Shown here piece after piece: positions 2,379-21,072 of a stretch of DNA of 23,236 nt. Position numbers and translations under genes: made by a program. Position 1 is the first letter of the stretch, and every line of letters begins with the position of its first letter. Source of the DNA: Prolixibacteraceae bacterium (GTDB lineage: Bacteria > Bacteroidota > Bacteroidia > Bacteroidales > Prolixibacteraceae); contig JAFGDX010000577.1 in the NCBI GenBank assembly GCA_016931875.1, positions 1 to 23,236 of the forward strand, written 5' to 3'. The notes under the pieces are model-generated. The model was not told the origin of the DNA, did no database searches, and saw only the letters and a program-made list of their open reading frames with translations.

Positions 2379-2404
2379 TGTCAGGAATTGCCTGCTTGGC
2401 CGAC
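2379..2404 (+). promoter_or_regulatory. Candidate ECF sigma promoter (copy 1) for the thioredoxin/DUF3179 operon
   Basis: TGTCAGG at 2379-2385, 15 bases, then CGAC at 2401-2404. The start codon of the thioredoxin-like gene follows 30 bases later. The same two blocks at nearly the same spacing occur in five other gaps of this window. The bases around the elements (CCTGTCAGGAAT, and CCGAC followed by GTT) and the leader up to the ATG are also shared with copy 3 at 9386. Confidence 0.75.
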
Positions 2405-2434
2405 TGTTTTCATGAATCACAAAAAGATGAAATC

Positions 2435-2887
2435 ATGAAGAAGATGACTACAGTAGCAATTTTATTATTGGGATTATTGGTAACGATCCTTATCCAGGCC
2501 AATCCATCTCAAAATAACTCCGGAGCTCAAAATAACACCGGAATCGCTTTCCACCAGGGAAGTTGGGCTGAAGCTTTGCAACGGGCAAAAAAAGAAGGCA
2601 AACCCATCTTTCTGGATATTTCTGCCAGTTGGTGCGGCCCGTGTAAACTACTAAAAGCAAGGACTTTTCCCAACGCCGATGTGGGCGAATTCTACAACAC
2701 CAACTTCATCAACGTGGCGGTGGACGGTGAAAAAGGCGAAGGCATTGAACTGGCTCAAAAGTATCGGATCAAAGGTTATCCAAGCCTGATTTTTCTGGAC
2801 AGCAAAGGCAATCTGATCGCTCAAACAGCCGGTTACCGAAACCCAAAACAGCTGATCGAAATCGGGGAACAAATACTGAATAAATAG
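2435..2887 (+). CDS. Exported thioredoxin-like protein with WCGPC active site
   Basis: A 150-residue thioredoxin-fold protein. It begins with a signal peptide or membrane anchor (about 5-21, hydrophobic), has a linker rich in Gln, Asn and Ser (22-38), and then a thioredoxin domain with the active site W66-C-G-P-C70-K and the cis-proline region around YRIKGYPSLIFLD. The pre-domain sequence SWAEALQRAKKEGKPIFLDI is typical of DUF255/thioredoxin_7-like proteins that reduce or isomerise disulfides outside the cytoplasm. The frame extends upstream to an ATG at 2396, but that codon lies inside the promoter element; the ATG at 2435 gives a standard signal sequence. It heads a run of four closely spaced genes to 5529. 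The partner protein is unknown. Confidence 0.9.
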   Translation: MKKMTTVAILLLGLLVTILIQANPSQNNSGAQNNTGIAFHQGSWAEALQRAKKEGKPIFLDISASWCGPCKLLKARTFPNADVGEFYNTNFINVAVDGEKGEGIELAQKYRIKGYPSLIFLDSKGNLIAQTAGYRNPKQLIEIGEQILNK

Positions 2888-2889
2888 CC

Positions 2890-3921
2890 ATGAAAACTAA
2901 AGGGGCAGCAACTATTGAGGGATCTCAAAGCCGGAGGGTTCGAGCAGCAGTGTTGGTTTTTGCGGTTTTTGGGATGATGGCTGCCCCTGTTTTATTGCAT
3001 GCGCAAACCTGTTGTTCAGGCGGCGTTCCACTTGGCGGCAGTTTGGGATTGGGTGCGGCCGAAAACCAGGCTCTCCAGATTTTGGTCACCTATGATTACA
3101 ATGCTTTGAATGATTTGGTCGATATCTCGGAACAACTCGACGACCAAACCCGCAGCCGGATTACCCACTCATCCATTATTGAAGTGAATTACGGGCTAAC
3201 CAACCGCTTTTCGCTTACGGGTGTTTTGCCATTTATCCGGCAGGAAAGAAACATCCAGGCTTTTGGCGGAACCGAAGATTTTACGGCAGCACAAGGACTG
3301 GGCGATGTGGTGTTACTGGCCAAGTACCGCCTGATCAATCCTGAAAAAGGATCGGATATTGACTGGGTGGTTGGTGCCGGTCCAAAAATACCAACAGCAA
3401 AAACTGATTTTACAAACAACCAGGGCTTGGTCATGGCTGCCGATATGCAACCGGGGTCCGGCTCACTGGATGGCATTTTTTGGAGCTCGTTTCAGAAAAA
3501 TCGTTTCTTGAAAAATCCCAATCTCGGCCTGGTAGCGGTTACAACATTTCGCTATTCGGGAAAAAACAGGAACTATAACGACAGCCAAACTTATCAATTT
3601 GGCAACGAATTTCAATTCAACCTGGGCCTGAATTACAGCTTGTTTGTCAAACGTCAGGTCGATGTATTCGCCTTTTTCCGCTACCGGAAACAAGCGGAAG
3701 ATTTGATTGATGGCGGGGTTTTCCCCTCTTCGGGTGGGCAGTGGGTTTATGCCATTCCGGGAGTCAATATCCGTTTCTCTCCCGATTTGTCGCTCAGGCT
3801 TTCCGGCGATATTCCACTTTACCGGAAGCTGGACGGCACACAACTTACCACCTCTTATAAATTAACTGCAGCAGTACTTTTCAACCTGCCGCTGAAGAAA
3901 AAGTCAATGTTTACCAATTAA
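2890..3921 (+). CDS. Outer-membrane beta-barrel / transporter-like protein
   Basis: A 343-residue exported protein with a long basic n-region (1-19), a hydrophobic core (20-35) and a likely cleavage after A38. The mature protein starts with a Cys-Cys pair (41-42) in a Gly-rich stretch. The rest alternates polar and hydrophobic residues in strands ending in aromatics (for example LTNRFSLTGVLPFIRQ, VKRQVDVFAFFRYRKQ, ysLFVKR-like segments), as in outer-membrane barrels annotated simply as transporters. It starts two bases after the thioredoxin stop and is followed after 11 bases by the DUF3179 gene, so it is probably co-transcribed with them. The exposed Cys pair could bind a metal or be a thioredoxin target; this is inference. 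The substrate is unknown. Confidence 0.75.
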   Translation: MKTKGAATIEGSQSRRVRAAVLVFAVFGMMAAPVLLHAQTCCSGGVPLGGSLGLGAAENQALQILVTYDYNALNDLVDISEQLDDQTRSRITHSSIIEVNYGLTNRFSLTGVLPFIRQERNIQAFGGTEDFTAAQGLGDVVLLAKYRLINPEKGSDIDWVVGAGPKIPTAKTDFTNNQGLVMAADMQPGSGSLDGIFWSSFQKNRFLKNPNLGLVAVTTFRYSGKNRNYNDSQTYQFGNEFQFNLGLNYSLFVKRQVDVFAFFRYRKQAEDLIDGGVFPSSGGQWVYAIPGVNIRFSPDLSLRLSGDIPLYRKLDGTQLTTSYKLTAAVLFNLPLKKKSMFTN

Positions 3922-3932
3922 AAAAGAAACAG

Positions 3933-4997
3933 ATGAAAACAATACTGATTTATTTATTGACCGTTGCCTTTTTAGCAACAGCTTGCGGTGAAGATGAAAT
4001 GAGTGCAGGAACCAATCCTCCGGGATCAGTAGATTCCGGAGAATGGTTGATTCCTAAAAATGAAGTACGCGATGGCGGCCCGGGACGAGACGGTATTCCG
4101 GCGCTTTCGGCTCCCCAATTGATTACGGCACAGGAAGCCACTTTTTTAACCGACAACGAACTGGTATTGGGTTTTGCCGATGGCAGCGATGTGCGTGCCT
4201 ATCCCCACGATATTCTCGATTGGCACGAAATTATTAACGACGAAACAGCCAACCACTCCATTGCAGTGATCTATTGTCCGCTCACCGGAACGGGTATTGG
4301 CTGGGACCGGAACGTTGCCGGAACAAAAACCACCTTTGGGGTTTCCGGATTACTGTATAACTCCAACATCATCCCTTACGACCGGTCAACCAATAGCAAC
4401 TGGTCGCAACTTTTGCTGAAATCGGTGAACGGGGAGCTGATCGGGACATCAGCAAACACCTACAACCTGGTTGAAACGAGTTGGAAAACCTGGAAACAAC
4501 TGTACCCTTCAACCAAAGTGGTTTCAACCAATACGGGACACAACCGGAACTATGGCAACTATCCCTACGGAAACTACAAAACATCCGGCAACCTGCTTTT
4601 CCCGGTAAGTCGTAACGATAACCGGCTTGATGCCAAAGAACGGGTGTTGGGAGTCGTGATCGGCGAAAAAGCCAAAGCCTACCGTTTCGAAAATTTTCCC
4701 GACCAATTGAATGTCATCAACGACACTTTTGAAGGTACCCAACTGGTGGTAGCGGGTAGCAAATCTTCGAACCTGATGGTTGCCTTTGATCGGAAACTTC
4801 CGGATGGAACGGTACTCGATTTTCAACCCTTGCAAGCGAGTGTTGACGGCATTTTACAGGACAATGAAGGGAATAAATGGGATGTGTTTGGGCGTGCTGT
4901 AGCTGGGCTGCGAACTGGCCAAAAACTAACTCCCGTGCCTCAAATGATGGGCTATTGGTTTTCGTTTCCCGCTTTTTATCCTGACATCGAATTATAA
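3933..4997 (+). CDS. DUF3179 domain lipoprotein
   Basis: A 354-residue lipoprotein: the signal sequence ends in the lipobox LATAC with C18 as the lipidated residue, followed by an acidic spacer. The DUF3179 domain covers most of the mature protein, seen from the VIYCPLTGTGIGWDR segment (C115), the TTFGVSGLLYNSNIIPYDR segment and the following NWSQ. In the family as I recall it, the position after CPL is normally Cys or even selenocysteine; here it is T118, so this copy keeps only one of the two. The function of DUF3179 is not established. The gene is in the second operon, 11 bases after the barrel gene and four bases before the DUF4833 gene. The late segment VGVVIGEKAKAYRFENF looks like a second copy of the domain core. 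Confidence 0.9.
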   Translation: MKTILIYLLTVAFLATACGEDEMSAGTNPPGSVDSGEWLIPKNEVRDGGPGRDGIPALSAPQLITAQEATFLTDNELVLGFADGSDVRAYPHDILDWHEIINDETANHSIAVIYCPLTGTGIGWDRNVAGTKTTFGVSGLLYNSNIIPYDRSTNSNWSQLLLKSVNGELIGTSANTYNLVETSWKTWKQLYPSTKVVSTNTGHNRNYGNYPYGNYKTSGNLLFPVSRNDNRLDAKERVLGVVIGEKAKAYRFENFPDQLNVINDTFEGTQLVVAGSKSSNLMVAFDRKLPDGTVLDFQPLQASVDGILQDNEGNKWDVFGRAVAGLRTGQKLTPVPQMMGYWFSFPAFYPDIEL

Positions 4998-5001
4998 AAA
5001 A

Positions 5002-5529
5002 ATGCAAAACACCAAGTCAATTATCATAGTCTTGCTGGGTTTGATTTTGATGGGAGTACCCAGTAGTTCGTTTGCGTTTGATTCTGAAAATAATAAAAAT
5101 TACTTATTTAAAATCGAACGTAGCCGGGATGCTGATGTGGTTATTTATGAAGCAAACCTGAGTAAAGACGGTAGTTTAAATCAGAAAGATCCTATTCGTG
5201 TTTATTGGAAAAAGAATACAGACAATGGCAAAATAGAGTCACTAACGAAAGTGCAAAATTCGCTTTCGTATGGCCTCCGAATTATTGAAGTAAATTCTTT
5301 TAAAACGGAATTTCAATTGGTGGCGTTCGAACAACCCATGACGCTTAAAAAAAATACCGACGGAGACTATAAAGTTTACGTTTGGATAGAGGATCAGGAA
5401 ATGGAAGTAGAACGCATTTATGTGCGGTTTTCAAACAAAAGTTATTGGTTTCCGAAAGTGGGGAGCGTCGGGTTATATACCAAAGCAGTCAATACACCCG
5501 AAATTCTTGCAAAAGTGATAACACCCTGA
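5002..5529 (+). CDS. Exported DUF4833 family protein
   Basis: A 175-residue protein with a signal peptide (hydrophobic core about 7-18, cleavage probably after A25). The mature part shows the pattern of DUF4833: LFKIERSRDADVVIYEANL near the start, then a segment with PIRVYWKK, and a beta-rich C-terminal half with VERIYVRFSNKSYWFPKV. Family members are small exported beta-proteins found mainly in Bacteroidota and have no assigned function. It begins four bases after the DUF3179 stop and is the last gene before the next promoter element, so it probably closes the second operon. No cysteine remains in the mature protein, so a direct role in thiol chemistry is unlikely. Confidence 0.82.
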   Translation: MQNTKSIIIVLLGLILMGVPSSSFAFDSENNKNYLFKIERSRDADVVIYEANLSKDGSLNQKDPIRVYWKKNTDNGKIESLTKVQNSLSYGLRIIEVNSFKTEFQLVAFEQPMTLKKNTDGDYKVYVWIEDQEMEVERIYVRFSNKSYWFPKVGSVGLYTKAVNTPEILAKVITP

Positions 5530-5565
5530 TTGTCGTCACTATTTCTGTAAATTTTTGTTTGAAGT

Positions 5566-5591
5566 TGTCAGGTTTACGTCTGCAGTACGAC
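5566..5591 (+). promoter_or_regulatory. Candidate ECF sigma promoter (copy 2) for the DsrE/cytochrome operon
   Basis: TGTCAGG at 5566-5572, 15 bases, then CGAC at 5588-5591. The DsrE start codon lies 46 bases further, the longest leader of the six copies. It sits in the 108-base gap after the DUF4833 gene, where no other coding potential is apparent. Confidence 0.7.
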
Positions 5592-5637
5592 CTATCCATC
5601 GACAGTCAATATTTAGTTCATCGAAAAATTTAAAAAA

Positions 5638-5994
5638 ATGACAAAAATAGCTATCGTAATTTATGCTGATACCGACACGGTGGAAGCAATGGGAAAAGTA
5701 TCAAACGCATTTATGCTGGCGCTTGAAGCAGTTGAAAACGGGGACGACCTGAAAATAATTTTCGAAGGCGCCGGTACCAAATGGATTGGCGAACTGGAAA
5801 GGGATGACCACAAAATGCATGATCTATACTCCGGCTTGAAAGATAAAATTACCGGAGTTTGCGATTATTGCGCCCAGGCATTCGGTGTAAAAAGTAAAGT
5901 TGAAAAAGCAGGAATTCCTTTGCTCTCGGAATTTAAAAAACACCCCAGCCTGCGCAGTCTGTTTGTCGAAGGCTACAGCGTTATCAATTTTTAA
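5638..5994 (+). CDS. DsrE family protein (candidate sulfur carrier)
   Basis: A 118-residue cytoplasmic protein of the DsrE/DsrF-like family: an alternating beta/alpha fold starting with KIAIVIYADTD, a central IIFEGAGTKWI strand-loop, and a C-terminal segment with a C75-x2-C78 pair (GVCDYCAQAFGV). In characterised relatives (DsrE, TusD) a conserved cysteine late in the chain carries a persulfide and passes sulfur between proteins. C78 is the likely carrier residue by position. No signal peptide is visible. It is the first gene after promoter copy 2 and precedes exported cytochrome and barrel genes. Sulfur transfer is a family-based inference; many DsrE proteins have no known substrate. Confidence 0.87.
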   Translation: MTKIAIVIYADTDTVEAMGKVSNAFMLALEAVENGDDLKIIFEGAGTKWIGELERDDHKMHDLYSGLKDKITGVCDYCAQAFGVKSKVEKAGIPLLSEFKKHPSLRSLFVEGYSVINF

Positions 5995-6066
5995 GATCAA
6001 ATTGTTCCGAGCAGCAAAATAAAATGCTTGAGAACGCAATCTGGTAATCACTCAAAAAAGAAAATA

Positions 6067-6444
6067 ATGAAGCATATTAATTCATGGATGATGTTAATCC
6101 TTCTTTCTGTTGCTTTTTTCAGTTGCCGTTACGACAATGAAGAGGAATTATACGGAGATGCAATCTGCGACACCAGCAACGTGACCTACGCTCAAACCGT
6201 CAAGCCTATTCTAACGGCCAGTTGTTACAGCTGCCATTCAGTCAGCAATGCCAACAGCTTTGGATCGGGAATCAACCTGGAAACCTACAGCGAACTCATG
6301 ATTCAGATCAACAACGGGAGGTTAGTCGGCGCCATTAGCCATTCGCCGGGTTACACGCCCATGCCCCAGGTTGGTGCCAAACTGGATGATTGTTCCATTG
6401 AAAAAATTAAAGCCTGGATTAACGAAGGAGCTGCAAACAACTAA
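6067..6444 (+). CDS. c-type cytochrome lipoprotein with one CxxCH site
   Basis: A 125-residue lipoprotein. The signal sequence ends at C20 in a lipobox (VAFFSC). A single heme-attachment site C53-Y-S-C56-H57 follows the segment VKPILTAS, which is typical of small cytochromes of the planctomycete-type PSCyt/cytochrome c domain. A Met at 99 in the sequence TPMPQ is a candidate axial ligand. The C-terminus (IEKIKAWINEGAANN) is the usual final helix. A frame extension reaches an ATG at 6028, but the ATG at 6067 gives the proper signal peptide. The gene lies 72 bases after dsrE-like and 11 bases before the DUF5777 barrel. A role in electron transfer at the periplasmic face is likely; partners are unknown. 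Confidence 0.92.
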   Translation: MKHINSWMMLILLSVAFFSCRYDNEEELYGDAICDTSNVTYAQTVKPILTASCYSCHSVSNANSFGSGINLETYSELMIQINNGRLVGAISHSPGYTPMPQVGAKLDDCSIEKIKAWINEGAANN

Positions 6445-6455
6445 ACAAAACCCAC

Positions 6456-7346
6456 ATGAAGAAAATAATCTTTTATATGATTTTCCTGGTTCCTTTTGCC
6501 TCGATGGGGCAAGATCTGGATGAGTTACTAGACGCAGAAACATCGGTAGGAAAGATCTACGAAAGTGCTGCATTTAAGGCTACCCGTGTCATTAATGGTC
6601 ACTCGGTGGAGCAAATGAAAGCCAAACATCTTGATTTCCGTATTTCGCACCGCTTTGGAGAACTGAATGGCGGCGCCTACGAATTTTTTGGCCTCGACCA
6701 GGCCACCATTCACCTGAGCCTCGAATACGGCCTGAAAGATTGGCTGATGATTGGCGTGGGCCGTAGCAACCTGCTAAAGACTTACGACGGATTTGTCAAG
6801 CTGAAACTCTTGCGCCAAACAGGCGGATCAAACAGTGTCCCCGTCTTTTTGTCGTACATGGGCTCGACAGAAATTTTCACAACGAAATGGACCAACCTGG
6901 AGCGGGATAATCTGTTCTCATCCAGGCTGACTTACGTACACCAGTTGCTGATCGCCCGGAAATTCAATAATCAGTTGAGTCTGCAATTATCACCGACCCT
7001 GGTCCACAAAAACCTGACACCCACCACCCGGGATGACAATGATTTATATGCCCTGGGAGCCAGCGGACGCTACAAAATCTCTAACCGGGTGGCCATCAAT
7101 GCCGAATATTTTTACGCTTTCCGCTCCGATGATGCTTCTGTCGATTATCCAAACGCACTTTCGTTTGGCGTTGATATTGAAACCGGAGGGCACGTTTTTC
7201 AATTGATGCTCACCAACTCGCTGGCCATGCGCGAAGGCGGTTTTATTTGGGGTCAGGACAATCACAACTGGGATGATGGCGGAATCCATTTTGGCTTCAA
7301 CGTTTCCAGGGTGTTCTCCTTTGATAAAAAGGCCAGTAGCTATTAA
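6456..7346 (+). CDS. DUF5777 family outer-membrane beta-barrel protein
   Basis: A 296-residue protein with a short signal peptide (cleavage near SMGQ, about residue 18). The mature N-terminus DLDELLDAETS and the following HLDFRISHRFGELNGGAYEF are characteristic of DUF5777, a predicted barrel family of Bacteroidota. The remainder shows alternating amphipathic strands and ends in a barrel-like strand, HFGFNVSRVFSF, close to the C-terminus. It is 11 bases downstream of the cytochrome lipoprotein and 18 bases upstream of a YceI gene; this cytochrome, barrel and YceI arrangement recurs in the phylum as far as I recall. It may be a pore for the substrate of the neighbouring exported proteins. No substrate can be read from the sequence. 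Confidence 0.85.
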   Translation: MKKIIFYMIFLVPFASMGQDLDELLDAETSVGKIYESAAFKATRVINGHSVEQMKAKHLDFRISHRFGELNGGAYEFFGLDQATIHLSLEYGLKDWLMIGVGRSNLLKTYDGFVKLKLLRQTGGSNSVPVFLSYMGSTEIFTTKWTNLERDNLFSSRLTYVHQLLIARKFNNQLSLQLSPTLVHKNLTPTTRDDNDLYALGASGRYKISNRVAINAEYFYAFRSDDASVDYPNALSFGVDIETGGHVFQLMLTNSLAMREGGFIWGQDNHNWDDGGIHFGFNVSRVFSFDKKASSY

Positions 7347-7364
7347 TCTAAAACCTCATGAAAC

Positions 7365-7919
7365 ATGAAGACGCTTGTACTATCAATTTTTGTGATCTTA
7401 TTCACAACCGGATTATTCGGACAAGAAATATATTTTACCAAAACAGGAACCATTATTTTTGATTCGTCTACCCCACTGGAAACAATCCATGCTGAGAATA
7501 ATCAAGTCACCTCGTTTTTGAAAACCACCAACGGAGAGCTGAACTTTGCGGCTCTGATGAAATCCTTCAAGTTTAAAAATGCCCTCATGGAGGAACATTT
7601 CAACGAGAATTTTATTGAATCGTCGAAATACCCAAAAGCAGTATTCAAAGGCCAAATTCTGAACTGGTCAGCCATTAACCTGTCCAAAGAAGAAGCGCAG
7701 GAAGCCAACGTTGAAGGAGAACTCACCTTGCACGGGGTGACCAAAAAAATTTCCACGAAGGCCGTTTTGAACCCTCAAAACGGCAAAATTGCCGGGACCT
7801 GCGATTTTGTTGTATCAGCCGAAGATTTTGAGATTAAAATTCCGGCCCTGGTCCGCGACAAGATCGCCAAAGAAGTGAAAGTAACGGTGAACGTGCTTTA
7901 TGAACCTTACAGCAAATAG
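7365..7919 (+). CDS. Exported YceI family protein (copy 1)
   Basis: A 184-residue protein with a signal peptide ending near LFGQ (about residue 20). The YceI lipocalin-like barrel is seen from the start of the fold (YFTKTGTIIFDSSTP), the FKFKNALMEEHFNENFIESSKYPKA core and the LTLHGVTKK strand near the end. YceI proteins bind isoprenoid or other amphiphilic ligands in some structures and are induced by alkaline or acid stress in E. coli; the ligand here is unknown. It sits 18 bases after the DUF5777 gene and two bases before an OB-fold gene. A second YceI protein, 186 residues, is at 10510, also next to an OB-fold gene. Confidence 0.93.
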   Translation: MKTLVLSIFVILFTTGLFGQEIYFTKTGTIIFDSSTPLETIHAENNQVTSFLKTTNGELNFAALMKSFKFKNALMEEHFNENFIESSKYPKAVFKGQILNWSAINLSKEEAQEANVEGELTLHGVTKKISTKAVLNPQNGKIAGTCDFVVSAEDFEIKIPALVRDKIAKEVKVTVNVLYEPYSK

Positions 7920-7921: not shown

Positions 7922-8350
7922 ATGAAACCTGCTTATAAAATTAGTTTGATACTCATCGTGCTTGCTGTTGTTGCGGGAGCAGGAGCTTATTGGTACGTAT
8001 TTTTGAAACCACACCAGAACCTGGAGAACACGAAGCCGGAATTTAAACTCAGCTCAACGCAACTTTTCAACGATTTCACGGAGGATGAAACAGCCGCCAA
8101 TGCCAGGTATTCGGGCAAAGTTGTTGAAGTGAGCGGAGAGGTTGTTGCTGTACAAACCGGAGAACAAGGCACCGCAATCATTCTGGAAGACGAGCTTTTC
8201 GGTGTCAGCGTCTACCTCGACAGCAGTTTTGTAGCAGCCAATCAACAACTAACAAACCAGACAGCAACCGGACAAACCATCACCATCCGGGGGAAATGCG
8301 ATGGCATGCTAAACGATGTGGTCATCAGCCGGGCGGTGATTATTCAATAA
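7922..8350 (+). CDS. Membrane-anchored OB-fold (tRNA_anti-like) protein (copy 1)
   Basis: A 142-residue protein with an uncleaved N-terminal membrane helix (about 6-28) and an exported OB-fold domain of the tRNA_anti-like type. The start of the domain is marked by FKLSSTQLFNDFTEDETAANARY, then YSGKVVEVSGEV, and a final strand with TIRGKCDGMLNDVVISRAVI. It is clearly paralogous to the protein at 9996, which shares the AAANxxY and the xxISGE blocks. Despite the family name, such periplasmic OB domains need not bind nucleic acid. The gene starts two bases after YceI copy 1 and is the last in the third operon. Function is unknown. Confidence 0.83.
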   Translation: MKPAYKISLILIVLAVVAGAGAYWYVFLKPHQNLENTKPEFKLSSTQLFNDFTEDETAANARYSGKVVEVSGEVVAVQTGEQGTAIILEDELFGVSVYLDSSFVAANQQLTNQTATGQTITIRGKCDGMLNDVVISRAVIIQ

Positions 8351-9385: not shown

Positions 9386-9411
9386 TGTCAGGAATAAGGA
9401 TGCTGTCCGAC
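9386..9411 (+). promoter_or_regulatory. Candidate ECF sigma promoter (copy 3) for the second thioredoxin-like gene
   Basis: TGTCAGG at 9386-9392, 15 bases, then CGAC at 9408-9411, and a start codon 31 bases later. The flanks and leader resemble copy 1 at 2379 beyond the core: both have CCTGTCAGGAAT, CCGAC then GTT, a shared TGAATCAC in the leader, and ATCATGAA at the start codon. Confidence 0.75.
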
Positions 9412-9442: not shown

Positions 9443-9850
9443 ATGAAAACAGTAAAGTCAATTTTCGCAAGTTTTATTCTAATCGCGCTGGTCAGTTTCT
9501 CAGCGTTTGCCGGAGCAGGATCAAAAGTTATCGCTGTGGTCAACAAAGCCGAATGGTGTCCGACCTGTCAGAAAAATGGGATGCGCGCCATGGAAACTTT
9601 TAAAGCCAATAACGAAGATATGGCCGTTCATTTCATCGCCAATGATCTGACCGATGACGAAAGTAAAAAGAAATCAGCAGAAGCATTGGAAGAAGTTGGG
9701 CTCGCCACAGTGATGGCCGAATACAAAGGAACCGGCGTGGTTTATTTTTTTGATGCAGAAAGCAAAGAATTAATCAACCAGGTTAGCGTTGCCAAATCCA
9801 ATGAAGAACTTGCTGAAGCGGTAGCCATGGCAAAGCGAGGAGCTGAATAG
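9443..9850 (+). CDS. Exported thioredoxin-like protein with WCPTC active site
   Basis: A 135-residue protein with a signal peptide (core about 8-20, cleavage after AFA at 23) and a compact thioredoxin-like domain. The redox motif is W38-C39-P-T-C42 and the cis-Pro region is replaced by TGVVYFFDAESKELI, so the classical cis-proline is not obvious. This differs from the WCGPC protein at 2435 and suggests a different redox potential or partner. It is a single-gene unit: promoter copy 3 lies 31 bases upstream and a strong terminator follows 23 bases after the stop. Its leader resembles that of the gene at 2435, which suggests a shared origin of the promoter region. The substrate is unknown. Confidence 0.85.
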   Translation: MKTVKSIFASFILIALVSFSAFAGAGSKVIAVVNKAEWCPTCQKNGMRAMETFKANNEDMAVHFIANDLTDDESKKKSAEALEEVGLATVMAEYKGTGVVYFFDAESKELINQVSVAKSNEELAEAVAMAKRGAE

Positions 9851-9934: not shown

Positions 9935-9959
9935 TGTCAGGATTTGCGTTTGTTACGAC
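9935..9959 (+). promoter_or_regulatory. Candidate ECF sigma promoter (copy 4) for the OB-fold/YceI pair
   Basis: TGTCAGG at 9935-9941, 14 bases, then CGAC at 9956-9959; the ATG of the OB-fold gene follows 36 bases later. A terminator immediately upstream means this pair needs its own promoter, which supports the call. Confidence 0.75.
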
Positions 9960-10472: not shown

Positions 10473-10509
10473 AAATCAAATTAACATGGAAACAATAAAA
10501 ATTAAAGTC

Positions 10510-13475: not shown

Positions 13476-13500
13476 AGTCAGGATTTGGTTTTTCTCCGTC
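13476..13500 (+). promoter_or_regulatory. Candidate ECF sigma promoter (copy 5) for the rhodanese-thioredoxin/ergothioneine operon
   Basis: AGTCAGG at 13476-13482, 14 bases, then CGTC at 13497-13500; the ATG follows 27 bases later. It is the most divergent copy (first base of the -35 block and third base of the -10 block). CCTG at 13467-13470 and CAGG at 13479-13482 could pair ahead of GGTTTTT, so the same bases may also end the upstream operon. Confidence 0.62.
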
Positions 13501-13527: not shown

Positions 13528-14244
13528 ATGAAACGAACAGCCATGTCGATATCATTTGCGCTAATCGCTTTTTTATCGATAGCACAAGCCCCAACAATAA
13601 AGCAGGTAAGCCCCGCGGAATTCAATCAACTCGTAGAAACCCCAGGCGGAGTTTTGCTTGATGTGCGCACCCTTTCGGAATTCAAAAACGGGCACATTCC
13701 CAATTCGGGACAATTAAATTATTACGCACTCGATTTCAGGAAACGCCTGTTGATGCTGCCTAAAGACGAACCCATTTATTTGTACTGCAACACCGGTTGG
13801 CGCAGTGAACGAGCAGCTAAAACGCTTGCTGAAAATGGGTATAAAAATGTTTATAACCTCGAACACGGAATTATGGACTGGGAGCTTCAAAACCTGCCGG
13901 TGGTGGTTGATCCCGATGCCAAACCCGACACTGAAAACAAAATGGACTACGAAGAGCTGGTGCGGTTGATCGAATCGGGGAAGCCGGTGTTTATTGATTT
14001 TTACGCGCCCTGGTGCGGTCCCTGCCGTACAATGATGCCAACGATTGATGAACTGAAAACAAAATACCACGGCAAAATTAATATTGTGAAAGTGAACGTG
14101 GATGCCAGTAAAAAACTGGTGAAAGAAATGAAAATCCAGGGTGTACCCTACCTGGCCTTGTATAACAACGGCAAGCCAGTTTATACAAAAAACGGACTGA
14201 CCTCGCGCGACGAACTTGAACAGGCATTGAACAGTATTTTATAA
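13528..14244 (+). CDS. Exported rhodanese-thioredoxin fusion protein
   Basis: A 238-residue protein in three parts. A signal peptide (1-20) is followed by a rhodanese domain (about 25-125) with the conserved DVRTLSEF and the active-site loop C87-N-T-G-W-R-S. Then comes a thioredoxin domain (about 137-238) with W162-C-G-P-C166 and the cis-Pro segment IQGVPYLALY. The rhodanese cysteine would carry a persulfide, and the thioredoxin pair could reduce it to release sulfide or regenerate the enzyme. Both active sites look intact. It heads a long run of close genes and is preceded by promoter copy 5. The coupling of the two domains is inference; the protein could equally use each on different substrates. 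Confidence 0.92.
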   Translation: MKRTAMSISFALIAFLSIAQAPTIKQVSPAEFNQLVETPGGVLLDVRTLSEFKNGHIPNSGQLNYYALDFRKRLLMLPKDEPIYLYCNTGWRSERAAKTLAENGYKNVYNLEHGIMDWELQNLPVVVDPDAKPDTENKMDYEELVRLIESGKPVFIDFYAPWCGPCRTMMPTIDELKTKYHGKINIVKVNVDASKKLVKEMKIQGVPYLALYNNGKPVYTKNGLTSRDELEQALNSIL

Positions 14245-14252: not shown

Positions 14253-14864
14253 ATGAACGACACAGGAGTAATCTACTTTTTTATAGCGCTGGCAGCCGCC
14301 ACAATTGGTGCTGTTCCATTGGGACTGGTGAACCTTTCTGTGGTTGACACAGCATTGAAAAATGGCTCGCAAAAAGCAACGGGGATTGCACACGGCGCAT
14401 CGGTAGTTGAAGTGATTTTTGCGCTTTCATCGCTTGTCGCCGGGGCTTGGTTATCGGAGTTTTTTAAGGGAAATCCGATGGTGCGGTATTTTGTTTTTGC
14501 CGTTTTAATGGGTTCCGGTTTGTTTTTCTGGCTCAAAAAGAACAAAGGACAACTTAAAAAAGAGCAGGGAAAATCTATTGGTTTTCTGAAAGGGGCTTTG
14601 CTAAATATCGTTAGTATTCCGGTATTGCTGTTCTGGCTTCTCGCCGCTACCGTTCTTTCAGCCAAACAACTTCTCCCTTCCTCGTTACCCGAGATTTTGT
14701 TTTTCCTGTCCGGAGTTTGGCTGGCAAAAATGGTCATTCTTAAAATTTATGTTTTCCTCGCATTAAAAGTAGTAAGCCGCGCACATAAACTATCATCCAA
14801 TATTAACCGCGTCATCGGTATTGTGTTGATGACGGTAGCAGTGATTCAACTCTTGAAAATTTAA
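14253..14864 (+). CDS. LysE family transporter
   Basis: A 203-residue inner-membrane protein with about six hydrophobic segments and the LysE-type N-terminus: a first helix with TIGAVPLGLVNLSVVDTALKNG followed by the second helix with GASVVEVIFALSS. LysE-family proteins export amino acids such as lysine, homoserine or cysteine derivatives. It starts eight bases after the rhodanese-thioredoxin stop and precedes a peroxiredoxin-like gene by 11 bases, which suggests that it exports a thiol or sulfur-containing amino acid, but the sequence itself does not reveal the substrate. A small basic loop (FWLKKNKGQLKKEQGKS) lies mid-protein on the likely cytoplasmic side. Confidence 0.87.
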   Translation: MNDTGVIYFFIALAAATIGAVPLGLVNLSVVDTALKNGSQKATGIAHGASVVEVIFALSSLVAGAWLSEFFKGNPMVRYFVFAVLMGSGLFFWLKKNKGQLKKEQGKSIGFLKGALLNIVSIPVLLFWLLAATVLSAKQLLPSSLPEILFFLSGVWLAKMVILKIYVFLALKVVSRAHKLSSNINRVIGIVLMTVAVIQLLKI

Positions 14865-14875: not shown

Positions 14876-15490
14876 ATGAAAATTGGAATTATCAATCTAA
14901 TAATATTTTTTACTATGACAAATTCAGTAGTACAAAATTACAGAAAAGCAAAAGACGCAAACGGGTTAAAGGTGGGGCAGCAAGCGCCTGACGTCCAGGC
15001 AACAGATGCCGACGGAAGAACTTTTCAGCTCTCAGAAGAATTGAAAAAAGGGCCAGCGGTGCTTATTTTTTATCGCGGCCAGTGGTGCCCGTACTGCAAC
15101 AAGCACCTGGGTGAAATTCAGGAAAACCTGCAACAGTTTATGGAAAAAGGAGCCACCGTAGTCGCCGTTTCCCCCGAAAAACCGGAATACCTACAGAAAA
15201 CAGCACTGAAAACAGGTGCTCGCTTTTCACTGCTCTACGATAAAGACTATCAGATAGCCGACGCATATGATGTCACGTTTCAGCCTGGCAGCTTTTCCAG
15301 GATTATTTACAATGCCGTGTTGGGAGCAAAACTAAAAGAAGCCCATTCGGATAATAGTCAACAACTGCCCATTCCAGCAACTTATGTGATAGATCGCAAA
15401 GGACAAATCGTGTGGCGGCATTTTGACCCCGATTATAAAAAACGCTCCACCGTTGATGAGATCGTTAGGGCTCTTGAACTCGCAAAATGA
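14876..15490 (+). CDS. Peroxiredoxin-like (AhpC/TSA) family protein
   Basis: A 204-residue thioredoxin-fold protein. The AhpC/TSA domain starts at about 33 (VGQQAPDVQATDADGR) and carries W70-C71-P-Y-C74 in the segment YRGQWCPYC, then the peroxiredoxin-like VAVSPEKPEYLQKT and a TYVIDRKGQIVWR strand. This is the peroxiredoxin-like subgroup with a Cys-x2-Cys pair, rather than the classical PxxxTxxC loop. The N-terminus (GIINLIIFFTM) is hydrophobic; with the ATG at 14876 it could be a membrane anchor, with an ATG at 14915 the protein would be soluble. It lies 11 bases after the LysE gene. A role in removal of peroxides or polysulfides fits the operon but is inferred. Confidence 0.87.
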   Translation: MKIGIINLIIFFTMTNSVVQNYRKAKDANGLKVGQQAPDVQATDADGRTFQLSEELKKGPAVLIFYRGQWCPYCNKHLGEIQENLQQFMEKGATVVAVSPEKPEYLQKTALKTGARFSLLYDKDYQIADAYDVTFQPGSFSRIIYNAVLGAKLKEAHSDNSQQLPIPATYVIDRKGQIVWRHFDPDYKKRSTVDEIVRALELAK

Positions 15491-15817: not shown

Positions 15818-15889
15818 AGACGTCTTTGAAAATCTACCGGAACAAAAGAGAAGCCAATTTTATAAAAACTTATAAAAAACAGATTCTTT

Positions 15890-17191
15890 ATGGTTATCGA
15901 AAAAACAACAACAGAACTCTTCAGACATCTAATAACATCAGGAGTAAAAATCATCGATGTTCGACAGGTGGAGGCTTACAACGGCTGGCATCTGAAAGGT
16001 GAAACCCGCGGCGGCCACATTGCCGGGGCAAAAAGCCTGCCTGCAAAATGGCTAAAATACATCGACTGGATAGAAATCGTGCGCCACAAAAACATCCTTC
16101 CGGAACACGAAATTGTCGTTTATGGTTATTCGCCCGAAGAAACGCAAGAAGTAGCCGAACGGTTTTTAAAATCGGGCTACAAAAAGGTTTCTGTTTATAA
16201 TCATTTTGCGGATGAATGGGTTGTCAATCCCAATCTTCCAATGCAGAAACTCGAACGGTACAAAAACCTGGTTTCAGCAGAATGGGTAAACGAATTGATT
16301 TTGGGCGGGAGACCGGCTGAATATGAAAATGACAACTTTGTTGTTGTCCACGCGCATTACCGCAATCGCGACGCATACCTAAACGGCCATGTTCCGGGGG
16401 CAATCGATATCGACACCAATGCGCTGGAAGCCGAAGAAACCTGGAACCGCCGCTCGTCCGAAGAATTAAAAAAAGCGCTTGAAGAACACGGAATCACTGC
16501 TGATACCACCGTGATTTTATATGGGAAATACATGGATCCCGACAACGATGACGAATTTCCGGGCAGCGCTGCCGGCGATATTGGCGCCATTCGGTGTGCC
16601 TTTATTATGCTATATGCCGGGGTGAAAGACGTACGGATACTGAATGGTGGTTTTCAGTCGTGGCAGGACGCCGGTTTTGAAACTTCATTTACCGATGAAC
16701 CTAAAAAACCGGTGGCCGATTTTGGCGTTTCCATTCCGCAGAAACCAGAACTGGCTGTTGATACGCCCGAAGCCAAAGAAATGATTGTTGCTGCCAATGC
16801 CGAACTGGTTTGTGTACGTAGTTGGCCTGAGTATATTGGCGAAGTGAGTGGCTACAACTATATCGAAGCGAAAGGCCGTATTCCAGGAGCCGTGTTTGCT
16901 AATTGCGGCTCGGATGCCTACCACATGGAAAACTACCGCAATGTGGACCATACTACCCGCGAGTTTCACGAAACAGCAGAAATTTGGATGAACAACGGAA
17001 TTACTCCCGACAAACACCTGGCATTTTATTGCGGTACCGGCTGGCGCGGCAGCGAAGCTTGGTTTAATGCCTGGCTGATGGGCTGGCCCCGTGTTTCTGT
17101 GTACGACGGTGGCTGGTTCGAGTGGAGCAACGACCCAAATAATCCGTATGAAACGGGAGTGCCGGAAGAAAATCTCACGCCAAGCCGCTAA
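15890..17191 (+). CDS. eanB: Triple-rhodanese sulfurtransferase resembling EanB (anaerobic ergothioneine synthesis)
   Basis: A 433-residue cytoplasmic protein made of three rhodanese-like domains (about 1-125, 126-275, 285-425). The first two lack the catalytic cysteine: the corresponding loops read VVYGYSPEE and VILYGKYMDPD. The third has C381 in the loop FYCGTGWRGSEA. EanB of Chlorobium limicola is a rhodanese-type enzyme that takes sulfur from polysulfide and places it on hercynine. From memory its key residues are C412, Y411 and Y353; a constant shift of 31 puts these on C381, Y380 and Y322 here, but an alignment is needed. The next gene, six bases on, is an EgtD/EanA-type methyltransferase, which is the strongest support. 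A general persulfide transferase is the alternative. Confidence 0.8.
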   Translation: MVIEKTTTELFRHLITSGVKIIDVRQVEAYNGWHLKGETRGGHIAGAKSLPAKWLKYIDWIEIVRHKNILPEHEIVVYGYSPEETQEVAERFLKSGYKKVSVYNHFADEWVVNPNLPMQKLERYKNLVSAEWVNELILGGRPAEYENDNFVVVHAHYRNRDAYLNGHVPGAIDIDTNALEAEETWNRRSSEELKKALEEHGITADTTVILYGKYMDPDNDDEFPGSAAGDIGAIRCAFIMLYAGVKDVRILNGGFQSWQDAGFETSFTDEPKKPVADFGVSIPQKPELAVDTPEAKEMIVAANAELVCVRSWPEYIGEVSGYNYIEAKGRIPGAVFANCGSDAYHMENYRNVDHTTREFHETAEIWMNNGITPDKHLAFYCGTGWRGSEAWFNAWLMGWPRVSVYDGGWFEWSNDPNNPYETGVPEENLTPSR

Positions 17192-17197
17192 AAAATT

Positions 17198-18163
17198 ATG
17201 GAACCAAAATTACTGCTTTCACAATTGGCAACCGATACCTTACAAGGGCTTTCCTCAAACCCCAAATACCTCTTGTCGAAATATTTTTATGATGACGAAG
17301 GAAGCCGGATTTTTCAGGATATCATGAACATGCCCGAATACTACCTCACCGATTGCGAGCATGAAATATTTTCATTGCAAACAGAGGAAATCACAAAGGC
17401 AATCTGCCCGGAAAACAAGCTGTTTAATATGGTTGAACTGGGTTCTGGCGACGGTTTAAAAACCAGAATCCTGCTGAAGTACCTGGTTGAAAAGGCCATC
17501 AATTTTCAATACACTCCCATTGATATCAGTGCAAAAGCCAACCATGAACTGGTGCAAAGCCTGAAAACGGAGTTGCCCGCATTACAAGTTGAAGCCAAAA
17601 CCGGCGATTATTTTCAGAAACTGAAGAATCTGAACGGACATGCTTCCATTCAAAAAATCATCCTTTTTCTGGGGTCGAACATCGGAAATTTTTCAGATGA
17701 AGAAACCACAAAATTTTTGAACCAGCTTTCAGCCTATTCAAATGTGGGGGATAAAGTTTTAATAGGTTTCGACCTGAAAAAATCGCCTGCAATAATTATG
17801 GATGCCTACAACGACCCGCATGGTCACACGCGCCGTTTCAACCTGAACCATCTGGTTCGCCTGAACCGTGAATTGGATGCCGACTTCAATCTCCAAAAGT
17901 TCGAGCAGCAAACGACCTACAATCCGCAAAGCGGCGAAGTAAAAAGTTTCCTGATTTCGAATGGAGAACAAACAGTTCAGATTGGCGCACTCGAAAAAGA
18001 ATTCGTTTTTGAGAAATGGGAGGCTGTTTTTATGGAACGCTCGCGGAAATACGACTTTCAAACCATTGATAAACTGGCGTTAAATCATGGATTTAAAGTG
18101 GTGCAAAATTTTACCGACAGCCGGAATTACTTTGTGGATTCGCTGTGGGAAAAAATAACTTAA
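17198..18163 (+). CDS. eanA: L-histidine N-alpha-methyltransferase (EgtD/EanA type)
   Basis: A 321-residue SAM-dependent enzyme of the EgtD family (Methyltransf_33), expected to trimethylate histidine to hercynine. The family N-terminus is plain (KYFYDDEGSRIFQDI and MPEYYLTDCE), the SAM-binding loop is E80-L-G-S-G-D-G at the start of the Rossmann domain, and the FLGSNIGNF segment matches the substrate-site motif of EgtD. The C-terminal part with FMERSRKYDFQTIDKLA is also typical. The gene begins six bases after the EanB-like gene and ends one base before the next ATG. No EgtB sulfoxide synthase is found in the window, so the sulfur step is more likely EanB-type. Some EgtD-family proteins act on other amino acids, which sequence alone cannot exclude. 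Confidence 0.92.
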   Translation: MEPKLLLSQLATDTLQGLSSNPKYLLSKYFYDDEGSRIFQDIMNMPEYYLTDCEHEIFSLQTEEITKAICPENKLFNMVELGSGDGLKTRILLKYLVEKAINFQYTPIDISAKANHELVQSLKTELPALQVEAKTGDYFQKLKNLNGHASIQKIILFLGSNIGNFSDEETTKFLNQLSAYSNVGDKVLIGFDLKKSPAIIMDAYNDPHGHTRRFNLNHLVRLNRELDADFNLQKFEQQTTYNPQSGEVKSFLISNGEQTVQIGALEKEFVFEKWEAVFMERSRKYDFQTIDKLALNHGFKVVQNFTDSRNYFVDSLWEKIT

Positions 18164-18164
18164 T

Positions 18165-19034
18165 ATGATACGAAAATCAACCAACAACTGGCAATTACTA
18201 TCGATTCCATTTAGTCAGGATATGGAAAACGAACTGAAACAACAACACCTTGCCGCGCAGTTTATTGCACTGACAGGCCGCTACCTGATTCCCCAAAAAC
18301 CGGATGGAAGCAACATCAACATGCAATACATTCCTGAAAAAGTGATGTTGCTCGGAAATGCACATCCCGACGGATGGAAAGTTGGTGTGAAACTAAGAAA
18401 CCAAACGGTGCAGATTTTGGGTGAAAACGACAATTCAAAAACTGAAGTTCCCCTTGAAGGAAAGACTTTACATGAAGCTTTTCAGGAGTTTAAAACAGCC
18501 CTGCATAACCTGGGAATTGATGTTTCGCAGTTAAAAACCGAACAGCCTTACGCGTTGTCAAAAGGTGGGTTAAAAGAGGGAAAATATTTTATGCGGGGAA
18601 GCGAGGAGGCTGTTTCGGAGAATACTCGATACCACCACAATGCCCGGCTGATAATCAACGAGCTGTCTGCCCGGTTTTCCGATGTTGAACCGGTGCGCAT
18701 CTGGCCCCACCATTTCGACACCGGGACATTTGCCACTATTGCCCGTAATGAAAAAGGTGCTGCGTCAAAAACCATCGGACTTGGCCTGGCTATTCCTGAC
18801 AGCATGGTTCCCGAACCTTATTTTTACCTGAGCTTTTGGTCTGAAAATCCGCTTAATATTGGTAACAATTCGGATAAACTACCTGCCGGAAAGTGGATGA
18901 TGCCAAACTGGAACGGTGCTGTGCTTGGAGTTTCGGAGATTATTCAAAAACAGACAGCCGAAGAACAATACAGTTTGGTAAAAGTCTTTTTTGAAGTTGG
19001 ACTAAAAAGCTTATTGGAAAAACTGAAGTTATAG
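18165..19034 (+). CDS. Conserved protein of unknown function with WPHHFD motif
   Basis: A 289-residue soluble protein without signal peptide or membrane segments. The C-terminal half has a run of strongly patterned motifs: a histidine pair in ENTRYHHNARLIINELS, then VRIWPHHFDTGTFATI, then TIGLGLAIPDSM, EPYFYLSFWSEN and WNGAVLGVSEI. I recall the WPHHFD, then GxGL, then EPYFY order from an uncharacterised bacterial family, but cannot name it. The histidines and Asp could bind a metal. The gene follows eanA by one base, so it is almost certainly co-translated with it. This makes it a candidate for an accessory step in ergothioneine or hercynine metabolism. The following gene is 64 bases away. 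Confidence 0.72.
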   Translation: MIRKSTNNWQLLSIPFSQDMENELKQQHLAAQFIALTGRYLIPQKPDGSNINMQYIPEKVMLLGNAHPDGWKVGVKLRNQTVQILGENDNSKTEVPLEGKTLHEAFQEFKTALHNLGIDVSQLKTEQPYALSKGGLKEGKYFMRGSEEAVSENTRYHHNARLIINELSARFSDVEPVRIWPHHFDTGTFATIARNEKGAASKTIGLGLAIPDSMVPEPYFYLSFWSENPLNIGNNSDKLPAGKWMMPNWNGAVLGVSEIIQKQTAEEQYSLVKVFFEVGLKSLLEKLKL

Positions 19035-19055
19035 AATCACGCTAAAACGCAGAGA

Positions 19056-19082
19056 CGCAAAGTTTAATGTTCTCTCTTTGCG
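19056..19082. repeat. Inverted repeat CGCAAAG/CTTTGCG within a dispersed-type repeat
   Basis: CGCAAAG (19056-19062) is repeated in inverted form as CTTTGCG (19076-19082) with a 13-base spacer, 17 bases before the Rieske-fusion start codon. The bases just upstream (ACGCAGAGACGC) resemble a short intergenic repeat seen in many bacterial genomes (from memory). It could be a relic or a weak stem in the leader RNA. Confidence 0.5.
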
Positions 19083-19098
19083 AGCAACATATTATACT

Positions 19099-20709
19099 AT
19101 GAAAAATCCAATTAAACTAATCGAAATTCAAAAATTGCAAGACCGCCAGCCGGCTCATGCCATAGTTAATGACCTTGACCTGGCGGTTGTCCTTTACGAT
19201 GGGAATATTTCGGTGTTATATGGCCGCTGCCTTCACCGTGGCGCTTTAATGGCCGATGGGCATGTGGAAGGCCACAACCTGATTTGCGGGCTTCACGGCT
19301 GGGATTACCGACTTGATACCGGTGTTTCGGAATACAACAACAAAGAAGCGCTTCACAAATTTACTGCAAAAACTGAAGACGGTTTTGTTTGGATGGATGA
19401 AGCTGAAATCGATGCTTTCCTCGAAAAACATTCGCAACCCTTTAACCGCCAAAAATACCAGGGAATTTATGCCGATACCCACCCTGAAACGACTGAACTT
19501 TATACCAGTTACATCAAAGAACTTTCAAAAAACGGGCTGAAAAATATCGGTCACCATGGGTTTTCAGCTTCCATGGGCGTTGATAGAAATACGCTTCCCA
19601 AATGGGAGGACATTCAATTTTTACCTGCTCAACTGTGGAAACGCCCGTTAACCGACGAGATGGTTGTGGACACAAAAGTTACTATTGGCAAAAATGCCAG
19701 AAAGCCGCTTGTGCTCGAAATTCCATTATTTGTCTCCGACATGAGTTTTGGAGCTTTGTCGCGCGAAGCAAAAATTGCTTTGTCGAAAGGGGCAGAAATG
19801 GCCGGAACCGGCATTTGCAGCGGTGAAGGCGGCATGTTGCCCGAAGAGCAGGAAAACAACTCCCGCTATTTTTACGAGCTGGCATCAGGAAAATTTGGGT
19901 TTAGCTGGGACAAGGTAAAAAAAGCACAGGCCTTTCATTTTAAGGGGGGGCAAGGCGCAAAAACCGGTACCGGAGGGCACCTTCCGGGAAATGAAGTAAC
20001 AGGTGAAATCGCTGAGGTCAGGGGTTTGAAAGAGGGCGAACCTGCCATTAGTCCTGCCGCTTTTCCCGATTTATTCACCGTTAAGGATTTCGCTGATTTT
20101 GCCAACGAAGTCAGACAGCATACCGGCGGAATTCCGGTAGGGTTCAAAATAGCTGCCAGCCACATTGAAAAAGACATCGATTTTGCACTCGAAGCGGGAG
20201 CCGATTACATCATCCTCGACGGGCGCGGTGGTGGAACCGGGGCAGCTCCCAAAATCCTCCGCGACAACATCAACGTGCCAACCATTCCGGCGCTGGCCCG
20301 GGCGCGCAAACACCTTAACAAAGTGGGCGCAAAAGATGTGGCGCTCATTATCACCGGTGGGTTGCGAACGGCCGAGGATTTTGCCAAAGCCCTGATGTTG
20401 GGCGCCGATGCCGTGGCTGTGTCCAATTCAGCATTACAGGCCATTGGCTGTCTTGGAATGCGTGCCTGCCATACAAACAATTGTCCGGTTGGGGTGGCCA
20501 CACAAAAAGAAAACCTCCGTCAGCGTATTATCATCGAAACCTCGGCAAAACAGCTCTGTAATTTTTTGATGGCCGTGAACGAACTAATGAAAGTGGTGGC
20601 CCGGGCCTGTGGCCACGATGATTTTCGGAAATTTAACCGTGATGATTTGGTCACCTTTAACCGCGACATGCATTATTTAACCGGAATTGAATATGGCGGG
20701 ATTTCATAG
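19099..20709 (+). CDS. Rieske [2Fe-2S] / FMN-binding glutamate synthase domain fusion
   Basis: A 536-residue protein. The N-terminal Rieske domain has C44-L-H46 and C63-G-L-H66, the complete ligand set of a [2Fe-2S] cluster. From about 125 to the end it is a glutamate synthase alpha-subunit FMN domain, shown by VSDMSFGALSREAKIALSKGA, GEGGMLPEE, the KGGQGAKTGTGGHLPG loop, ILDGRGGGTGAAP and the C451-x5-C457-x4-C462 cluster motif ending NNCPVGVATQ. The glutaminase domain and the GltB C-terminal helix domain are missing, so it cannot be an ordinary glutamate synthase. A reductase or dehydrogenase fed by the Rieske centre is likely. The start at 19099 is an ATG; a TTG at 19078 would overlap the inverted repeat. 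The position after eanB-eanA suggests a link. Confidence 0.9.
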   Translation: MKNPIKLIEIQKLQDRQPAHAIVNDLDLAVVLYDGNISVLYGRCLHRGALMADGHVEGHNLICGLHGWDYRLDTGVSEYNNKEALHKFTAKTEDGFVWMDEAEIDAFLEKHSQPFNRQKYQGIYADTHPETTELYTSYIKELSKNGLKNIGHHGFSASMGVDRNTLPKWEDIQFLPAQLWKRPLTDEMVVDTKVTIGKNARKPLVLEIPLFVSDMSFGALSREAKIALSKGAEMAGTGICSGEGGMLPEEQENNSRYFYELASGKFGFSWDKVKKAQAFHFKGGQGAKTGTGGHLPGNEVTGEIAEVRGLKEGEPAISPAAFPDLFTVKDFADFANEVRQHTGGIPVGFKIAASHIEKDIDFALEAGADYIILDGRGGGTGAAPKILRDNINVPTIPALARARKHLNKVGAKDVALIITGGLRTAEDFAKALMLGADAVAVSNSALQAIGCLGMRACHTNNCPVGVATQKENLRQRIIIETSAKQLCNFLMAVNELMKVVARACGHDDFRKFNRDDLVTFNRDMHYLTGIEYGGIS

Positions 20710-20813
20710 TGAGTCATGTTCGAAGGAAGAAAAACACTGCGAAATTTCACGGGAACACGGCAAGAGAACAATTTTCAAGCATGTAAACAGGAATTAATTT
20801 GAGCACAAAAAAT

Positions 20814-21007
20814 ATGAAAATTACGCTGTTTTCAACCCTGACTTGTCCCAACTGCGGACACAAAAAAACCGAAGAAATGCCCGCCGACGGCTGTCAGTTT
20901 TTTACGAGTGTGAAAGCTGCAAAACCGTATTACGACCAAAACACGGCGATTGCTGCGTGTATTGTTCATACGGAACGGTGAAACGCCCGTCGAAGCAGAT
21001 TGGATAA
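20814..21007 (+). pseudogene. Frameshifted small zinc-ribbon protein
   Basis: From the ATG at 20814 the frame reads MKITLFSTLTCPNCGHKK, then EEMPADGCQFF. At this point a T run (six T at 20888-20893) loses one base relative to the expected sequence, and the original frame ends at 20981 with an unrelated tail. Adding one T restores FFYECESCKTVLRPKHGDCCVYCSYGTVK and runs to a TAA at 21005-21007. Two Cys-x2-Cys pairs and the GDCCVYCSYGTV block match a small zinc-binding protein family common in Bacteroidota and Proteobacteria. The restored protein has a slightly altered C-terminus (RPSKQIG instead of the usual CPP ending, recalled). A T-run slip is also a classic sequencing error. Confidence 0.85.
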
Positions 21008-21046
21008 CTTCCTTTAAATAAATATCAGATTATTTTGTCTTTTTTT

Positions 21047-21072
21047 TGTCAGGTCTGAGAAAATACTGCGAC
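21047..21072 (+). promoter_or_regulatory. Candidate ECF sigma promoter (copy 6) for the P460-like cytochrome
   Basis: TGTCAGG at 21047-21053, 15 bases, then CGAC at 21069-21072; the start codon follows 30 bases later. A T-rich stretch precedes the first block. Confidence 0.72.

Follow-up and report, generated by a model that had tools for sequence, protein, structure and literature searches.

The window analysed here is a whole contig (C75, 23,236 nucleotides) from the draft genome of a Prolixibacteraceae bacterium (3.23 Mb, 71% complete). It encodes an extracytoplasmic function (ECF) sigma factor and a small candidate zinc anti-sigma (ZAS) factor, and ~20 kb of further genes follow the pair on the same strand as the ECF gene (Table 1). 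A two-block element, GTCAGG-N13..16-CG[AT]C, occurs seven times in the window, always on the + strand. Across 100 shuffles the mean is 0.16 copies and seven are never seen; the original prediction had put the chance expectation at ~0.2 for spacings of 14/15. Six copies precede other genes; the seventh lies within the ECF gene, upstream of the anti-sigma gene. This internal copy, and the local regulon suggested by the other six, are the subject of this report.

Table 1. The sigma/anti-sigma pair, the seven copies of the element and the genes that follow them.
Feature	Position	Strand	Remarks
ECF sigma factor gene, 187 aa	628..1191	+	Sigma70_r2 9.5e-17, Sigma70_r4_2 2e-8
Element TGTCAGG-N15-CGTC	1093..1118	+	Internal; codons of the ECF region-4 helix-turn-helix (HTH) (Cys156-Gln157-Glu158 ... 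Pro163-Ser164)
Predicted anti-sigma gene, ZAS motif C-x25-H-x3-C-x2-C	1202..1468	+	From sequence
Element	2379..2404	+	Before thioredoxin-like 2435-2887
Genes after thioredoxin-like 2435-2887	2890-3921; 3933-4997; 5002-5529		Second, DUF3179; third, DUF4833
Element	5566..5591	+	Before DsrE-like 5638-5994
Genes after DsrE-like 5638-5994	6067-6444; 6456-7346; 7365-7919; 7922-8350		Second, DUF5777; third, YceI; fourth, tRNA_anti-like
Element	9386..9411	+	Before thioredoxin/redoxin-like 9443-9850 (Redoxin 20.8 bits, cut-off 26.6)
Element	9935..9959	+	Before tRNA_anti-like 9996-10472, then YceI 10486-11070
Element AGTCAGG...CGTC	13476..13500	+	Before rhodanese-thioredoxin fusion 13528-14244
Genes after rhodanese-thioredoxin fusion 13528-14244	14253-14864; 14876-15490		LysE; AhpC/TSA
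Element	21047..21072	+	Before cytochrome P460-like 21103-21618 (P460 25.3 bits, cut-off 27)

The earlier placing of an ECF sigma factor and a zinc-type anti-sigma factor at 628-1468 is supported by domain matches and by the C-x25-H-x3-C-x2-C motif. In the ECF protein PF04542 and PF08281 (sigma-70 regions 2 and 4) both exceed their cut-offs, and TIGR02937 (sigma70-ECF) scores 96.3 bits against a cut-off of 42.9. The top NCBIfam scores are to NF009184 (143.5, cut-off 276) and TIGR02943 (Sig70_famx1; 142.3 bits, curated cut-off 162.2), and as the latter is below its cut-off the protein is not assigned to TIGR02943. The anti-sigma protein misses the NF052368 anti-sigma family cut-off (46.3 bits against 50). 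In 114 of 120 loci a ZAS gene lies no more than 520 nt 3′ of the ECF gene, and of 296 genomes sampled from the phylum 44 carry the ECF group (E ≤ 1e-30).

The six intergenic sites of the original prediction have GTCAGG at 2380, 5567, 9387, 9936, 13477 and 21048, all on the + strand. Their spacing is as described (15 in four sites and 14 in two, with the 13477 copy reading A-GTCAGG and CGTC), and the distances from the -10 to the chosen ATG (30, 46, 31, 36, 27 and 30 bases) reproduce the range of 27-46. That all six are intergenic holds with the starts chosen here, and for two genes depends on which start is taken. A mechanical list of open reading frames begins two frames at TTG 2396 and ATG 9861, the second of which would place the 9935 site within its frame; the start at 9996 was chosen because the orthologous frame on a second contig, C1, begins after its own site and has the same length (158 aa). 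Two points did not survive. The coding copies of GTCAGG that had been checked were said to lack CG(A/T)C at this spacing; the copy at 1094-1118 in the ECF gene, which was missed, has both blocks. The description of the targets as nearly all thiol, sulfur or heme proteins is too strong, as tRNA_anti-like, YceI, DUF and beta-barrel genes are also among them. Among the window proteins the haem-binding, P460 and one redoxin match fall below the Pfam cut-off.

Two further runs of genes are present in the window. Triple rhodanese, EgtD-like methyltransferase, 289-aa and Rieske/glutamate-synthase-domain fusion genes occupy 15890-20709, with no motif copy before the run; the first two are also found near the ECF in two genomes of the same genus (G019, contig C50, and G026). 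At 11144-13421 there are DinB-like, TANGO2-like and TseH-like/DUF6695 genes, a trio that recurs in C1 and G026.

A genome-wide scan had been proposed as a check on the motif, and pattern searches of the contigs gave a divided answer. There is no excess over the whole draft genome (21 matches, against 25 for the reversed pattern), and there is local clustering, with 13 of the 21 in C75 (seven) and C1 (six); the remaining eight all fall in open frames of 80 aa or more. The tighter pattern TTGTCAGGNTTN10-12CGWCT has four matches in the genome, all in C75 and C1, and none in the reversed control. The motif signal is local, in agreement with the original prediction. In a scan of 61 genomes, our own and its relatives, for TGTCAGG-N13..16-CGWC, counts were mostly at the level of the reversed control, with the own genome at 15 against 4.

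Contig C1 carries a second ECF gene, 68% identical to that in the window, with its anti-sigma gene. It has five intergenic copies of the motif, preceding DUF4833, DsrE, thioredoxin-like, tRNA_anti-like and DinB genes, and one copy in the ECF gene. Gene order differs from that of the window and most gene families are in common. A third ECF fragment of the same family (G000:C28, L027, 140-317) looks broken: it consists of two pieces that overlap, with identities of 59% and 64%, and its 4.1-kb contig has no motif copy.

To follow the element beyond this genome we used 80 named loci, the best 80 of 188 relatives, which came from a search of public genomes with the ECF-protein alignment alone. The 1.06 Mb of DNA around them contains 95 copies outside the ECF gene on the ECF strand and six on the opposite strand, and the reversed pattern gives 10 and 9. 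Spacing among the 95 is 14 in 49, 15 in 45 and 13 in one. A copy outside the ECF gene is found at 46 of the 80 loci, and 38 have a copy inside it, at one fixed place. Where at least 2 kb of downstream sequence is available, 44 of 66 loci have an outside site, or 49 counting GTAAGG. Among culturable carriers, Ancylomarina sp. DW003 (L132) has both an internal and an intergenic site, and Labilibacter marinus (L115) has an internal one.

The -10 block also emerges when it is not assumed. Behind 354 ECF-strand GTCAGG sequences (82 loci), CGAC is found 44 times at 14 nt and 42 times at 15 nt, and CGTC eight and 11 times, respectively; behind the 241 opposite-strand GTCAGG sequences of the same loci, the six most frequent following words do not include CGAC. 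The derived consensus is TTTGTCAGG[AT]TT ... CG[AT]CTa, with 11-12 nt between the blocks and 14 or 15 nt from GTCAGG to CG[AT]C. A GTGAGG variant was considered for those loci whose residue 157 is encoded by GAG and rejected, there being no -10 enrichment behind GTGAGG; L086, L089 and L094, with 3-6 kb each, have no recognised intergenic site. For nine GTAATG loci GTAATG-N14..16-CGWC occurs zero times outside the ECF gene on either strand of flanks of ~1.5-2 kb.

For 128 of the 132 intergenic sites a frame of 60 aa or more is found within 300 nt, at a median distance of 42.5 nt. Of 122 downstream frames, 85 have a counterpart among the genes of the window or C1 (rhodanese-thioredoxin 22, tRNA_anti-like 20, DsrE 10, two thioredoxin types nine and seven, and others fewer) and 37 match none. 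These findings indicate that putative promoter-type elements before redox operons accompany the ECF family. Eight related sites (L152 2314 and seven others) precede a cluster of eight proteins, one tested member of which is an HvfA-family precursor of a ribosomally synthesized and post-translationally modified peptide (RiPP) metallophore, and a singleton gene downstream of L102 10565 is HvfX-like; these HvfA/HvfX-type genes link the ECF family to copper/RiPP systems besides thiol redox. The largest downstream cluster without a counterpart in the window has nine members (L078 2302 and eight related sites; 728 aa in L078). Proteobacterial plasmid relatives of the ECF (L141, L143) adjoin CcdA, thioredoxin and arsenosugar (arsS) genes, and the Acinetobacter one among them also adjoins CMD and peroxiredoxin genes.

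The original prediction did not know this motif from the literature, and GTCAGG was not met in the literature searched for it. The motif nevertheless resembles the published sigma-E consensus of Neisseria meningitidis, whose promoters have a -35 of GTMAGBWTT and a -10 of CGTCTAAH 12-13 nt apart (PMC2893595). The -35 consensus derived here fits GTMAGBWTT, which three of the six window sites match in full. An ECF gene followed by a small ZAS anti-sigma gene is common to the window, to neisserial sigma-E/MseR, where MseR carries the ZAS motif (PMC2893595), and to Haemophilus RpoE2/HrsE, of ECF group 13 (PMC7907618). Redox targets are shared with Neisseria, where they are MsrAB; MsrAB is not among the Pfam matches of the window. 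Over 82% of its length the ECF protein of the window shares 37% identity with a Neisseria gonorrhoeae record. The differences are in the spacer (12-13 nt after a 9-base -35 in Neisseria, 11-12 here) and in the -10, which is CGTC there, whereas five of the six window sites have CGAC. We take the window promoters and the sigma/anti-sigma pair to be, on this likeness, of the same kind as neisserial sigma-E.

For the internal element, a strict site was defined as GT[CA]AGG-N15-CG[AT]C and a relaxed site as G[TC][CAG]AGG-N15-C[GT][AT]C; over all 189 loci there are 93 strict and 136 relaxed internal sites. One explanation is that the intergenic sites are ECF promoters, whereas the internal copy arises by chance from the coding of a protein segment that is conserved for its own sake. 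The segment I-C-[QK]-E-L is indeed well conserved in the protein, and at 53 of the 189 loci the element is missing even in relaxed form. Codon choice argues against this. Near-identical loci were removed before the codon-redrawing and covariation counts (178 to 174), L043-L049 were excluded as duplicates of named loci, and L137, which has Gly instead of the Cys anchor, was left out of the codon table. In the 81 ECF genes Cys156 is TGT in 80 and TGC in one (138:77 elsewhere in the same genes), Gln157 is CAG in 71 and CAA in one (329:286), Lys157 is AAG in 4/4 (360:1051), Glu157 is GAG in 4/4 (297:862), and Ser164 is TCN in 28/28 (AGY in 313 of the 877 other Ser codons). On the protein tree the third base changes once in 81 at Cys156 and once in 73 at Gln157, the two lowest values among 54 two-fold columns (mean 0.20 per sequence) and both at motif positions; the other two conserved Cys residues show 28 changes in 82 and 10 in 81. 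A Ser codon signal at residue 57, at the top of a first G statistic, was dropped as an artefact of the split Ser codon families, and it disappears in a third-base-only test.

With proteins fixed and codons redrawn, a strict internal site is observed at 56 of 117 loci against 3.86 expected (maximum 11 in 3000), and with one representative per 65% identity cluster at 23 of 49 against 1.42. A second sample of 72 loci (L174-L245) gave 30 of 57 against 0.51 (maximum 5). This second null covers the 57 loci, leaving aside the 15 recovered (14 plus L163), and is biased towards site retention because the regular expression used demands conserved residues; the 14 loci it missed, recovered by alignment, have the strict site in seven, so that the second sample then stands at 37/71. 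Most loci with other residues at these positions still preserve the bases of the motif: Ser156 is AGT in 4/4 loci (all of one genus) and Gly156 is GGT in L137, both with GTCAGG intact, Lys157 is AAG in 57 of 60 loci, and the codon for Pro, Ser, Thr or Ala at residue 163 ends in G in 121 of 173. Judged by its codons, the internal element is held at the DNA level and is no coding accident, and we regard coincidence as highly unlikely.

The same base sets Gln versus Lys at residue 157 and the internal -35, and the intergenic sites appear to follow. Covariation is informative at 68 of 174 loci, those with an in-gene -35 and a majority intergenic -35. Loci with in-gene GTCAGG have a majority of intergenic GTCAGG in 42 cases and GTAAGG in five, and those with in-gene G[TC]AAGG have GTAAGG in 18 and GTCAGG in three; no probability is attached, because related loci are not independent. 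The predicted -35 base of the motif thus changes with the ECF subfamily. This bears on whether the sites are instead bound by another regulator, a repressor or activator, and not by ECF holoenzyme. The window does encode a TetR-family protein, and the sites are known here from their sequence; the two-block shape, strict orientation, spacing of 14/15 and CG[AT]C -10, together with the covariation and the likeness to the neisserial consensus, make such a regulator extremely improbable.

From the internal -10 to the first ATG of the ZAS gene the median distance is 84 nt (quartiles 81-87, range 7-333); in the window the ATG is 84 nt past the last base of the -10, and there is a GTG at 48. A strict site within 400 nt 5′ of the ECF gene is found at none of the 129 loci with a relaxed internal element (upstream DNA is too short at seven more) and at eight of the 53 without one. 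Sigma-dependent upstream autoregulation of the neisserial type is therefore not seen at these 129 loci. The neisserial rpoE operon is autoregulated, unlike the loci here, and the N. gonorrhoeae locus has no internal element at the corresponding place; the missing upstream site is closer to Haemophilus influenzae, where RpoE2 only slightly activates its own promoter.

The nearest precedent for the internal site is in Corynebacterium glutamicum, where a SigH-dependent promoter within sigH transcribes the anti-sigma gene rshA alone, from mapped start sites that lie 62 and 66 nt upstream of the rshA start codon, and sigH itself has four housekeeping-type promoters (PMC3489674). There, as predicted here from sequence, a promoter in the sigma coding region serves the anti-sigma gene; the phylum and the motif (TGGAAGA / TGTTAAA) are different. 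This was the one internal ECF promoter found in the literature, which was covered in part. Given this precedent, we infer the same logic for the internal site.

Promoter-like sequences within genes can hold sigma-bound polymerase. The internal element could accordingly be real and yet make polymerase pause or hold it in a sigma-dependent way, or have some other non-promoter role, and its being recognised by sequence leaves room for this. That it has both a -35 and a -10 at promoter spacing, stands at a median of 84 nt before the anti-sigma ATG, and has a published analogue that initiates transcription (PMC3489674) speaks against such a role, which we consider unlikely.

A pair from within the order was also considered. 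EcfO-Reo of Bacteroides/Phocaeicola is likewise an ECF/anti-sigma pair of Bacteroidales with a role in stress response, but Reo is described as spanning the whole cell envelope and is no small zinc anti-sigma, and the regulon is that of NigD (PMC13114119); it was dropped as a match for the window pair. A recognised class I anti-sigma factor is reported for few ECFs of the phylum (6%; PMC7406223), and no experimental study of this ECF group in Bacteroidota was recognised in the literature searched.

The reading of the window as a local ECF regulon is supported by the C1 locus, the strand and spacing specificity in the 80 loci, the tracking of the -35 base with subfamily and the neisserial likeness. 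The pair and its regulon are of a known kind; the new part is the internal copy. Taken together, we conclude with good confidence that the window probably encodes an ECF/zinc anti-sigma pair with a local regulon, in which an internal promoter for the anti-sigma gene would act as a negative-feedback brake. A thiol, oxidant or metal signal would loosen the zinc anti-sigma factor, steps that we infer from ZAS proteins in general. The freed sigma factor would then use the intergenic sites to transcribe the adjacent operons and the internal site to transcribe the anti-sigma gene. The sigma gene itself would not be boosted, so that sigma would be basal and anti-sigma made on demand. The outcome would be a response that stays local and is braked by negative feedback, unlike the usual auto-amplified sigma operon.

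Several observations weigh against this reading. The bare motif is present in 60 of the 61 genomes, most of which lack the ECF, and its presence alone is therefore uninformative away from the ECF. Among the 80 named loci, whose records are in the majority metagenome assemblies, 34 lack any GTCAGG site outside the ECF gene, and at 20 of them the internal site is absent as well; of the 66 loci with 2 kb or more of downstream sequence, 22 have no outside site, or 17 counting GTAAGG. The 53 loci without an internal element count here too, as do four proteobacterial relatives examined, in which the internal site is absent (Halomonas has GTAAGG without a -10). The internal -10 is CTAC instead of CGWC at 28 of 174 loci, and as the intergenic sites of the 27 first-set CTAC loci are mainly CGAC (28, with three CGTC and four CTAC), some internal sites may be weak. 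The covariation has its 5 + 3 exceptions, and Fisher tests of it take no account of relatedness. An upstream site was found at eight loci; seven of them are all the sampled loci of family f27, and the alignment of the eighth, L234, is doubtful. The upstream contrast is close to a single event, because those seven belong to one family. Codon constraint alone is no proof that the anti-sigma gene is the target.

A broader proposal is offered tentatively, with more doubt than confidence: that the DNA coding for the HTH of the sigma factor doubles as that sigma factor's promoter, a dual role retained by the majority of the members sampled in the phylum, and that a C to A change (CAG/AAG) alters both residue 157 and the internal -35, with the other -35 sequences of the regulon following. 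If true, the overlap would couple the specificity of the promoter to the sequence of the protein and to the anti-sigma brake, and in this way steer the evolution of the regulon.

For this ECF group, these results provide a concrete, testable promoter code and a core regulon. They predict that the sigma gene bears its own promoter within its DNA-binding codons, driving its inhibitor, such that positive feedback is replaced by negative, and that one family is wired the opposite way. Synonymous recoding of a few codons offers a direct test of the internal promoter prediction.

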